This document shows positions 1 to 3,749 of a stretch of DNA of 43,635 nt, in pieces (positions within the stretch are counted from its first letter, which is position 1; each line of letters starts with the position of its first letter). The notes under the pieces were generated by a model. That model did not search any database. It was not told the origin of the DNA and saw nothing but the letters and a program-made list of their open reading frames with translations. The stretch is from an uncultured Oscillospiraceae bacterium (GTDB lineage Bacteria; Bacillota; Clostridia; Oscillospirales; Oscillospiraceae), in contig CANRFU010000003.1 in NCBI GenBank assembly GCA_947629975.1, positions 1 through 43,635 of the forward strand, written 5' to 3'. The translations under genes and the position numbers were made by a program.

Positions 1-25
1 TGTAAAAGTGATGCGATGACAAACC

Positions 26-383
26 CTCAGTACCCCTTAGAGGGGTCAGCAAGTACTGACCCCTCTGGGGTCTGAGCGAACCACTAGTTTACTAGTGGTT
101 TTGATTGGCGCTTTAGCGTCAATAAACCCCCAGTTCAACTGGGGGTCGATAAAAATGCTTTAGCGAAAGCCAAGAACCCGCCGCATTACAAGAAAGTGCG
201 GCGGGTTCTTGAAAAGCACAGGGGACAACAAAAGGGTGAGAATCAGAGAATATAGTCCCCGAGCAGGGGACTTGCAGTGCAAAAAGTGTGATTGATGCTC
301 TTTTTCAGTGCCCCCTTCAGGGGGCTACCACAGGAGATAGGCCCTTATAGGGTCTGTTCAAACCACCGGTTCAACCGGTGGTT
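26..383. repeat. Cluster of about ten short perfect or near-perfect hairpins (possible structured RNA or non-autonomous mobile element; may continue left of the window)
   Basis: Inverted repeats read directly: 26-76 (AGAGGGGTCAG/CTGACCCCTCT plus CCCC/GGGG and CTCAG/CTGAG), 79-100 (AACCACTAGT/ACTAGTGGTT), 104-123, 126-146 (ACCCCCAGTT/AACTGGGGGT), 157-170, 171-211 (CAAGAACCCGCCGCA/TGCGGCGGGTTCTTG), 254-272, 310-325, 339-355, 361-383 (AACCACCGGTT/AACCGGTGGTT). Confidence 0.85.
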
Positions 384-389
384 TTGATT

Positions 390-2831
390 TTATGAGCCGA
401 GCTGATCTCTGGCGTCAATATAGTACGCGATGAGAACCGCGACGGCGCCCCGGGAGAGGACTTCGCCGTCCTCGCCGTTCTGCCGGGCCTCCCCGGCCGT
501 CCGCTCCCAGGCGTCTTCCGCCCAGCGCTCCGCGTCTGGGATGCCCGCGTATTCCGCGAAGGGGACCAAGAACTCCAGCGCGTCCTCCCGCGTCAGCAGG
601 TCGAGGGGGCGGCAGAGGTCGCCGTCCCGCAGGAGGCCGGCGGCCCAGGCGGCGGAAAACGCCTGCCCGCGCCAGTCGTCCGTCAGGTCGGTATAGGGCG
701 TCCGCTCCCCGGAGGACGGCAGGCCGGCGGAGGACACCAGCATGGTGAGGAACATGGAGCGGTCGGCGCTGTCCGCTCCCATGAACAGCCCGAAGCCGTT
801 GCCGGAGATGACGCCCCGGTAGCCCAGTTTGTTTACCGCGTCCCGGTACCAGGTGCCGGCGATGTCGGCGAAGCAGTCCCCCTGCTCGGCGTGGGGGCCG
901 GTGGAGGCCAGGCCGGCGGCGGAGTAGGCGAAGCCGTAGTAGTCCGAGTAGAGGACGTTCCGGGATACGGCGAACAGGTTTTTGACGGCGGCGGTGAGAT
1001 CGGCGGCGTAGTTCTCCGGCAGGTCCTCCTCCGGGGTCCGGTAGGTGACCTGGCCGGAATTGCTGTCATAGATCAGATCCCTGGTGAGATAGCTGCCGTC
1101 GAACAGCACCGCCATGTGGATGCTGTCGGAGAACACATCGGTGCCGGTGAGCAGGCGGGAGTCGTACTCCATGCCGAACAGGTTCAGAATGGTGGGCAGG
1201 ATGTCCTGGGTGCAGCAGTAGTCGTCCACATGGACAGGTCCCTCCATGCCGGGATTCCAGCAGACAAAGCTGTTGCGGTAGCGCCAGAAGGGGTCGCCCG
1301 CCGCGTCCCCGGCCAGCTGTTCAAAGTCCGCGTCGGACAGGGCATAGGGGAAGTGGTCGCCGGTGAGGACGATCACCGTATGGTCGGCGATCCCCGCCTC
1401 CTCCAGCCGCTGGACCAGGTAGGTCAGCGCGTCCTCCAGCTCCAGCTGGCAGGCGTAGTAGGCCTTCAAATCCTCGGAGCAGTCCATACCGGCCACCCGG
1501 TCCCGGTTCTTGATGGCCATCTCGTTGGTGTCAAAGTTGTATGGGGCGTGGCCGGAGTAGGTCATGTAGTGGACCACGAAAGGCTCCTGGCCTATGTAAT
1601 CGTCCACTGTCTTCTCCATCATCTCCAGATCGGAGGAGGGGTAGCCCTGCGCCATATCCAGCCCGCAGCCGATCGCCCGGAAATCATAGCCCATATTGGG
1701 GTGGGTGTTGACCCGGTTATAGAAGGAACCGATGTTGTCGTGATAGGCCAGGGTGTTGATCCCCGCCTGATCCCGGAAGATCCGCCCAAGGCAGTTGGGC
1801 AGGTAGTTCTGCATGGAGGGGAGGAAGCTGAGGCTGCCGGTGTCGGGGATCAGCCCCATGCTCAGGCAGTACTCCCCGTTGGTGGTGAGGTTGGGGAAGG
1901 TGCCGTAGAAATTGTCAAAGACGAAGCCCTCGTGGGTGAGGCGGTACAGGGTGGGGGTGAGCTCCTCCGAGATCAGATAGGGGCTGTAGGACTCCGCGCA
2001 GATCTGGATGAGGTTATACCCCTTGAACATCCCGGTGTACTCGTTTTGGGCGGTGCCGGGCAGGCCGGAGAAGTACTTGTTCAGGGCGAGGAGTCCGGGG
2101 TCGTCCGTGGCCCTGTTGAGGGCGTCGAAGTCGATGGCATCGATGACATTCCGGGGGACGTCCTCCCCGCCGCCGCCCTGGAGGTCGATGCCCGCATCCG
2201 CCAGCTCCGCGTGGCCGCCCCCCAGCCGGAGCAGCTCCAGCCGCTCGGCGGTGAGCAGGCCGAAGTACTCTGTCTGCCGGTCCACCGAGGTCAGCTCGTC
2301 GCGATAGACGGCGCCGGGGCCCTCCTCGCTCTCGGGGGGGATGGACAGGGCGAACGCCAGCACCCCGCAGCTCATCATCAGCAGCCAGCTCTCCAACCCG
2401 GCCCGCTCGCCGGAGAGGACCTTCTTATGCTGGAGGACCGCCAGGACGGGGTACGCCGCCAGATACGCCAGCAGCAGGGGGATGCTGCGCACGATGCCGC
2501 CGACCACGATGGGGATGAAATTGCCGATGGCGTCGCCCCCCATGCCCACGTAGGACAGGGACAGCAGAGAGCCGAAAATGATGTAATAGACGGTCTGGAT
2601 GGAGAACACCGCCAGCATGGCCGTCAGCAGGACGAAGCGGGTGATCTTGTTGGCCAGCGGCCGCTTCCACAGGTGGGAGAGCAGCGTGAGAAGGAGGGCG
2701 CCGGCGAGAGTGAAGCCGATGGCGCTCAAAAAGCGGAGGGACAGGCCCTTGAACACGACGAGATGAAAAATCAGTTCCCATAATAGGAGCACCGCCGCCC
2801 AGAACGCGGCGGTTTTGCACAGAGGTCTCAT
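390..2831 (-). CDS. LtaS-like membrane sulfatase/phosphotransferase with C-terminal SLH-type repeats
   Basis: N-terminal TM segments, LtaS-family sulfatase motifs (NLTTNGEYCLSMGL, YHDNIGSFYNR, YMTYSGHAPY, TGDHFPYAL), then SLH-like DCFADIAGTWYRDAVNKLGYRGVISG and YTDLTDDWRGQAFSAAWAAGLL; start at 2831 preferred because of the upstream AAAGGA RBS. Confidence 0.88.
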   Translation of the reverse strand: MRPLCKTAAFWAAVLLLWELIFHLVVFKGLSLRFLSAIGFTLAGALLLTLLSHLWKRPLANKITRFVLLTAMLAVFSIQTVYYIIFGSLLSLSYVGMGGDAIGNFIPIVVGGIVRSIPLLLAYLAAYPVLAVLQHKKVLSGERAGLESWLLMMSCGVLAFALSIPPESEEGPGAVYRDELTSVDRQTEYFGLLTAERLELLRLGGGHAELADAGIDLQGGGGEDVPRNVIDAIDFDALNRATDDPGLLALNKYFSGLPGTAQNEYTGMFKGYNLIQICAESYSPYLISEELTPTLYRLTHEGFVFDNFYGTFPNLTTNGEYCLSMGLIPDTGSLSFLPSMQNYLPNCLGRIFRDQAGINTLAYHDNIGSFYNRVNTHPNMGYDFRAIGCGLDMAQGYPSSDLEMMEKTVDDYIGQEPFVVHYMTYSGHAPYNFDTNEMAIKNRDRVAGMDCSEDLKAYYACQLELEDALTYLVQRLEEAGIADHTVIVLTGDHFPYALSDADFEQLAGDAAGDPFWRYRNSFVCWNPGMEGPVHVDDYCCTQDILPTILNLFGMEYDSRLLTGTDVFSDSIHMAVLFDGSYLTRDLIYDSNSGQVTYRTPEEDLPENYAADLTAAVKNLFAVSRNVLYSDYYGFAYSAAGLASTGPHAEQGDCFADIAGTWYRDAVNKLGYRGVISGNGFGLFMGADSADRSMFLTMLVSSAGLPSSGERTPYTDLTDDWRGQAFSAAWAAGLLRDGDLCRPLDLLTREDALEFLVPFAEYAGIPDAERWAEDAWERTAGEARQNGEDGEVLSRGAVAVLIAYYIDARDQLGS

Positions 2832-2849
2832 GGCGGGCATCCTTTCAGA

Positions 2850-2887
2850 CCGGGGATTTCGCAATTATCCGGGGATTTCGCAATTAT
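2850..2887. repeat. Perfect 2 x 19-bp tandem repeat CCGGGGATTTCGCAATTAT in the 5' leader/promoter of the LtaS-like gene
   Basis: Copies 2850-2868 and 2869-2887 are identical. Confidence 0.95.
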
Positions 2888-2984: not shown

Positions 2985-3749
2985 TCACTTCCTGTTGCGG
3001 ACGTATACCTGGGTGCCCTGATAGTTGGCGTTGTGCCGCTCGTCGGTCTCGAAGCCGTCCAGGGAGGAGATGAACCGGGACAGCTTGGAGAAGCCGTAGT
3101 TCCGGGGGTCGAAGTCGGGCTGCTTTTTCATCAGCAGGTTGCCCAGATCCCCCAGATAGGCGTAGCCGTCCTCGTCGGCCAGGTCCTCCACCGACTGGGC
3201 GATCAGCTCCTTGATGCCCAGGCTCTGGGCCTCCGGCTCGGGGGCGGGGGAGGACGCGCCGGCGGCCTTCTTTCTGGTCTTGGGGGCGGTCTCCTTCGCG
3301 GCGGCGGCCTCGGCGGCCTTCAGCGACTCGATGTAGACGAACTTGTCGCAGGCCACGATGAAGGGCTTGGGGGTCTTTTTCTCCCCCATGCCGTAGACCT
3401 TCATCCCCGCCTCCCGCAACCGGGTGGCCAGGCGGGTGAAGTCCGAGTCGCTGGACACCAGCACGAACCCGTCGCAGTTGCCGGAGTAGAGGATGTCCAT
3501 GGCGTCGATGATCATGGCGGAGTCGGTGGCGTTCTTGCCGGTGGTGTAGCTGTACTGCTGGAAGGGGGTGATGGCGTGCTCCAGCAGCAGGGGTTTCCAG
3601 GAGTTCATATTGGGGGTGGTCCAGTCCCCGTAGATGCGCTTGACGGTGGCGGCGCCGTACACGGCCACCTCCGCCATGATCTCCCGCAGGGCGGAGCGGG
3701 GGGCGTTGTCCGCGTCGATGAGGACGGCCAGCCGGAGTTCCTGATCCAT
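2985..3749 (-). CDS. NYN-domain (LabA/DUF88-like) putative RNase with C-terminal OST-HTH domain
   Basis: LAVLIDADNAP, TTGKNATDSAMIIDAMDILY, DGFVLVSSDSDFTRLATRLREAGMKVYG motifs; C-terminal winged-helix-like region. Confidence 0.88.
   Translation of the reverse strand: MDQELRLAVLIDADNAPRSALREIMAEVAVYGAATVKRIYGDWTTPNMNSWKPLLLEHAITPFQQYSYTTGKNATDSAMIIDAMDILYSGNCDGFVLVSSDSDFTRLATRLREAGMKVYGMGEKKTPKPFIVACDKFVYIESLKAAEAAAAKETAPKTRKKAAGASSPAPEPEAQSLGIKELIAQSVEDLADEDGYAYLGDLGNLLMKKQPDFDPRNYGFSKLSRFISSLDGFETDERHNANYQGTQVYVRNRK

Follow-up and report, generated by a model that had tools for sequence, protein, structure and literature searches.

The first 390 nucleotides of the window (the whole 43,635-nucleotide stretch of an uncultured Oscillospiraceae bacterium analyzed here) are crowded with inverted repeats, and an inverted-repeat search found the palindromes where the initial annotation had seen them (39–49/56–66, 79–88/91–100, 126–135/137–146, 171–185/197–211 and 360–371/373–384, plus several shorter ones). 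Two finer details of that annotation, a GTTCAAC core at 126–146 and 361–383 and a shared motif AACCACYRG...CYRGTGGTTTTGATT at 79–106 and 361–389, were also borne out, both being exact, and the shared motif is the right-end hairpin of two repeat families, called A and B here. What had been described as a single hairpin element is actually two, the right end of a family A copy (33–106) and a whole family B element (107–389), with the following features:

33–106, forward strand: right-end part of family A, corresponding to the final 74 bp of full-length A copies; the left part has diverged or been lost toward the contig edge.
79–106, forward strand: right-end hairpin of A (79–100, an inverted repeat) with its TTGATT tail (101–106), the target site of B, whose left end starts from the next base.
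107–389, forward strand: complete family B element of 283 bp, non-autonomous and IS200-type (PATE), with copies at C8, C44, C55 and G006:C29 in unrelated flanks.
119–126, forward strand: A-rich, guide-like left bases (TCAATAAA) that complement T-rich targets, for example TTATT (guide/target pairing better than in permuted pairs, 9/1000).
126–146, forward strand: left-end subterminal hairpin ACCCCCAGTTCAACTGGGGGT, seen as an inverted repeat, in the fold, in the covariation of 40 relatives and at the same place in tnpA-bearing copies.
171–211, forward strand: internal hairpin with a 15-bp perfect stem, where autonomous copies have a stem covering the tnpA ribosome site; pairing is kept despite sequence change.
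254–389, forward strand: right end common to autonomous tnpA copies, in which it follows the tnpA stop codon (86–88% identity at C48 and C21).
360–389, forward strand: right-end hairpin AAACCACCGGTTCAACCGGTGGTTT (12-bp perfect stem) and TTGATT tail, the right cleavage site, as in relatives with the same right ends.
390–2864, reverse strand: host gene for a sulfatase-domain protein (PF00884, E 1.6e-21), whose stop codon adjoins the right end of B.

Farther on, positions 2985–3749 of the reverse strand encode an NYN nuclease domain and an OST-HTH/LOTUS domain. The boundaries of B come from comparing copies with unrelated flanks, and its right end is uncertain by 1 nt. A search of the window's own genome found positions 104–390 in full at C8 and C44 (100% identity) and at C55 (92–93%), family B having four copies in this genome. 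Another copy, 100% identical over 285 bases, lies in another species of the genus (L024, G006:C29:23194-23478), indicating either a recent transfer or a very recent burst; elsewhere, the two species share only about 79% identity in flanking genes. Family A is comparable in number (four to five copies per family, in units of 283–295 bp): its full copies elsewhere measure 295 bp, and window positions 33–106 recur apart from B at C48, C42, C30 and C12 (95% over 74 bp). At the junction (106/107), B starts directly after the terminal TTGATT of A. A tandem arrangement of two family A copies was also observed (L021, G000:C42:9600-11000), in which the left end of the second copy follows the right-end hairpin of the first, cut at its loop (AACCACTAGTTTA), so that the first copy has lost half of this hairpin.

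The parentage of B can be read from its ends. Y1 transposase (PF01797) matches occur at C48, C21, C18 and C41 in the window's genome, with an E-value of 1.1e-39 beside the same right end as that of B. The C48 product carries an HIH motif (DHIHML) and a tyrosine in KEYIRNQ, both read by eye. At C48 and C21 the sequence of window positions 254–389 comes directly after the tnpA stop codon, leaving no tnpB in the parent elements, while at C18 the sequence of positions 107–155 lies ahead of a degenerate tnpA. Because the left and right ends of B thus flank Y1 genes elsewhere in the genome, B is, to judge from its sequence, a deletion derivative of a tnpA-only IS200-group element that lost the gene and kept both ends. 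Its group is marked by a single Y1 HUH transposase in the parent, subterminal hairpins at 126–146 and 360–384 and the lack of tnpB, and its standing as a PATE by the lack of a transposase, ends as in the C18, C48 and C21 elements, and several copies, found in unrelated contexts and also in a second species. The gene at C41 (L017, G000:C41:15693-16037) is a fourth Y1 transposase-like gene, of 135 aa and another kind; it was ruled out as a parent, having neither the ends nor the hairpins of B. The suggestion of an IS200/IS605-like non-autonomous element in the initial annotation was therefore right, the ends being common to tnpA-bearing copies, whereas its impression of an orphan without a transposase holds inside the contig and fails for the genome, where the region is multi-copy and its ends flank Y1 genes. 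We infer, rather than observe, that a Y1 TnpA mobilizes B in trans, the window copy included, because no intact full-length tnpA is found in the genome assembly, the two best copies running into contig ends.

The fold itself appears to be selected. As single-stranded DNA, window positions 104–389 fold at -74.1 kcal/mol vs -36.5 ± 4.1 kcal/mol in shuffles (z -9.2, 0/200), and positions 1–390 as RNA give a z of -11.7 (0/100 shuffles), which confirms structure beyond chance palindromes, with z about -9 to -12. In the terminal hairpins of 40 relatives, pairing is kept in 94% of cells and seven of nine base pairs show changes on both sides; the covariation score is 0.493 vs 0.130 in shuffles (0/500), and slid structures reach at most 0.143. 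Since the terminal hairpins covary, the earlier proposal of a selected structure (the same fold with different stems) is supported, and both other copies and covariation, for which it had advised a search, were found, which excludes a single-copy sequence with neither arrays nor covariation. The end hairpins would be the TnpA-binding ends. In autonomous copies the tnpA ribosome site is covered by a AAACCTCC...GGAGGTTT stem, at the place matching 171–211 in B, and the internal hairpin of B would be a relic of this leader stem, which masks tnpA translation. Its sequence varies between copies of B, the one in G033 and those of family A, with pairing retained. In the counterparts at L004, L025, L026 and L022, stem pairing is likewise kept though no tnpA start is left to mask; the internal hairpin of such transposase-less elements may serve the single-stranded intermediate or may be a small RNA.

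The position of B behind a hairpin and a T-rich tail is shared by its relatives. From a TnpA scan of prokaryote genomes, 580 relatives were obtained and 80 loci kept, and nearly every element has a hairpin and T-rich tail immediately upstream of its left end. An initial count of 52 copies gave a hairpin score of at least 20 for 88.5% of them, compared with 3.8% for shuffles, 4.5% for random flank positions and 6.2% for motif-matched positions. The final count covered 77 distinct insertion sites (nine from the own genus, many from Firmicutes including Veillonella and Chakrabartyella, and eleven enterobacterial IS200C copies), and at 73 of them the insertion is on the 3′ side of a strong hairpin followed by a T-rich tail, that is, of an intrinsic terminator; the sites were aligned on TT/G, so the last two T's are partly there by construction and the hairpin is not. 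Controls for this count gave 3–7% for the T-rich motif and 11% for noncoding motif-matched positions, and the T-rich motif alone was accordingly rejected as an explanation (3–11% vs about 95%). Three of the four misses (L071, L120 and L180) have by eye a short or bulged terminator that the simple scorer marked down; the fourth, L063 (L063/L190), inside a gene, is the only site without any hairpin. The cut is a median 7–10 nt away from the hairpin's GC core (6–9 nt in IS200C), and the distance is fairly loose in Firmicutes, mostly 5–15 nt. Three single-site copies of family A and the first of the tandem pair are likewise behind terminators, and a Salmonella plasmid relative with 40% TnpA identity has a terminator before the element at the one site read. 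The right end of IS200C also serves as a target (L173), like that of A in the window. As a pattern, the terminator rule of the IS200 group is strongly supported.

The terminator preceded the insertion. For the C8 copy, relatives G023 and G006 have the same gene pair and terminator with no element; at the B sites, relatives can be aligned through the junction of the rejoined flanks, the tail itself having diverged, and the G007 ortholog of the window's sulfatase gene is closely followed by an intrinsic terminator, with no element there. The order is resolved to the base at E. coli fabF, whose terminator region was found in 5,394 of 5,426 genomes: the empty site of strain 961 reads GCGGGCCTTTTTTCTT followed by AGC, and strain 118UI is identical up to the boundary between the two, then carries IS200C and then the right flank. 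This filled and empty pair shows insertion 3′ of a short motif with no target duplication. The upstream hairpin was rejected as a part of the element, its sequence differing at every site and being present at empty sites. Additionally, an IS200C-like left end was found in 2,447 enterobacterial plasmid records, and the ten further copies that were read each occupy a different site, evidence against the view of IS200 as immobile.

Very probably, then, the locus holds two abutting non-autonomous IS200-type elements, and B, which inserts behind a hairpin and T-tract, reached the right end of A in this way: the right end of the sister element (hairpin and TTGATT) offers the same structure, which would be how B landed behind A. 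More generally, IS200-group elements would enter 3′ of a T-rich stretch after a hairpin, chiefly the T-tracts of terminators, and the insertion would leave the host terminator intact. IS608 needs only a tetranucleotide target, read by guide bases (PMC5934647). In all lineages an A-rich stretch precedes the left hairpin on its 5′ side, and by analogy with IS608 TCAATAAA is a putative guide whose A-rich bases would pair with the T-tract of the target; contiguous pairs between a guide and its own target average 3.45 vs 3.23 ± 0.09 when permuted (9/1000), a comparison in which every guide is rich in A and every target rich in T. Guide pairing alone would not select hairpins. A hairpin with a T-rich tail is also what a right end consists of, and right ends do serve as targets; TnpA may therefore take the target hairpin for the right end of an element. 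The hairpin would be read as a DNA structure in the single-stranded lagging-strand template, on which the IS200/IS605 family works (PMC6006769). In this family the transposing form is a single-stranded circle derived from that template. In two complete genomes (V. parvula SKV38 and Chakrabartyella), the transposon strand lies on the lagging-strand template in 10 of 10 copies, a bias that is confounded with co-directional genes; for fork direction, dnaA near position 1 was taken as the origin and the terminus was assumed to be opposite.

Transcription offers a different route: RNA polymerase pausing at the terminator would leave the T-rich non-template strand single and open to TnpA. The strand with the T-tract is the non-template strand at all sites and the hairpin distance fits the termination zone; however, sister right ends, which are putative terminators at most, are used as targets too, and the family is documented on the lagging-strand template (PMC6006769), which all ten copies fit; we consider this route less likely, though possible. 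It is less probable still that elements insert at any guide-read T-rich motif and that only the copies behind terminators survive, being harmless there. The targets are indeed T-rich and match the A-rich guide, and the tetranucleotide suffices for IS608 (PMC5934647), but among noncoding positions that match this motif on these contigs, 11% have a hairpin vs 95% of the insertion sites, and the insertions fall exactly in the tail, 6–9 nt from the GC core in IS200C. The same argument is weakened by ISEfa4, which is of the IS605 type, carries TnpB, has about 30% TnpA identity and is under similar selection on plasmids: 0 of its 6 distinct sites reached the hairpin threshold (best scores 10–14), and its target is TTTAAC or similar. 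That the region is instead a repeated, structured non-coding RNA would suit its very stable fold and the sRNA that the tnpA leader of Salmonella IS200 yields (PMC12594629), yet Rfam gave 0 matches over the whole window at gathering thresholds, the precise ends are common to transposase-bearing copies, copies stand at unrelated sites and empty sites exist; this reading has very little left to recommend it, and the hairpin cluster is mobile DNA rather than an orphan ncRNA. REP/REPIN sequences with a RAYT partner, the least probable reading, would share hairpins, a Y1-type enzyme and an extragenic position, but are refuted by the tnpA-bearing copies with the same ends in the genome and by distinct left and right ends on units of 283–295 bp in four to five copies per family. 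The ornate ncRNA, the REP/RAYT element and the phage remnant that the initial annotation had also considered find no support, given fixed, differing IS200-type ends, low copy number and the lack of an Rfam match.

Several known systems resemble parts of this picture. The nearest is the IS200 group itself (e.g., enterobacterial IS200C), with a Y1 HUH TnpA and no TnpB, subterminal hairpins at both ends, a leader stem over the tnpA start and T-rich 3′ insertion without target duplication, IS200C being behind terminators too; B differs in having no tnpA, and the terminator rule is absent from the open-access literature searched, in which no report of terminator targeting by IS200 was found (older subscription papers on IS200 were outside its scope). 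PATEs were named in Haloquadratum for elements whose core is deleted and whose ends are kept (PMC3119063); those of Haloquadratum and Halanaerobium also lack a transposase, have near-terminal palindromes as in IS200/IS605-type elements and arose by core deletion (PMC3119063, PMC7290912), whereas B is bacterial (Clostridia), comes from a tnpA-only element and shows terminator targeting. IS608, ISDra2 and ISEfa4, which carry TnpB, share the enzyme family, single-strand transposition and guide bases beside the hairpins (PMC5934647) but use linear tetra- or pentanucleotide targets, and the ISEfa4 sites have no hairpin. The REP/REPIN-RAYT systems have Y1 transposase relatives that act on DNA hairpins (PMC2817692, PMC8266576); theirs is a domesticated, single-copy enzyme with numerous short extragenic REPs, often in alternating orientation and commonly as inverted pairs, unlike the transposon ends in few copies found here. 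Group IIC introns insert after the stem-loop formed by an intrinsic terminator or attC site, at a TTGT/T-type motif (PMC7923331, PMC10190682); with a ribozyme and a reverse transcriptase, they are unrelated in sequence and chemistry and only work alike. B as a group IIC intron was rejected, the whole window having no Rfam match and B no room for a reverse transcriptase.

If hairpins with T-rich 3′ tails are captured by TnpA as stand-ins for the right end of the element, the whole IS200 group, from Firmicutes through enterobacterial IS200C to the distant Salmonella plasmid relative, may be a terminator-homing lineage, convergent with group IIC introns and sheltering behind unbroken terminators; we put this forward tentatively, as a possible reading. 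It would provide a testable case of a DNA transposase that chooses its target by structure and not by short sequence alone. The presence of IS200C at eleven different sites and its precise insertion at fabF show mobility directly. In practice, the rule can help to place the precise termini of IS200 elements and of their PATEs, and it calls for caution in the annotation of terminators and small RNAs beside them. A near-strict rule, under which an intrinsic terminator precedes about 95% of sites, would account for the spread of these elements with little harm and for their silence.
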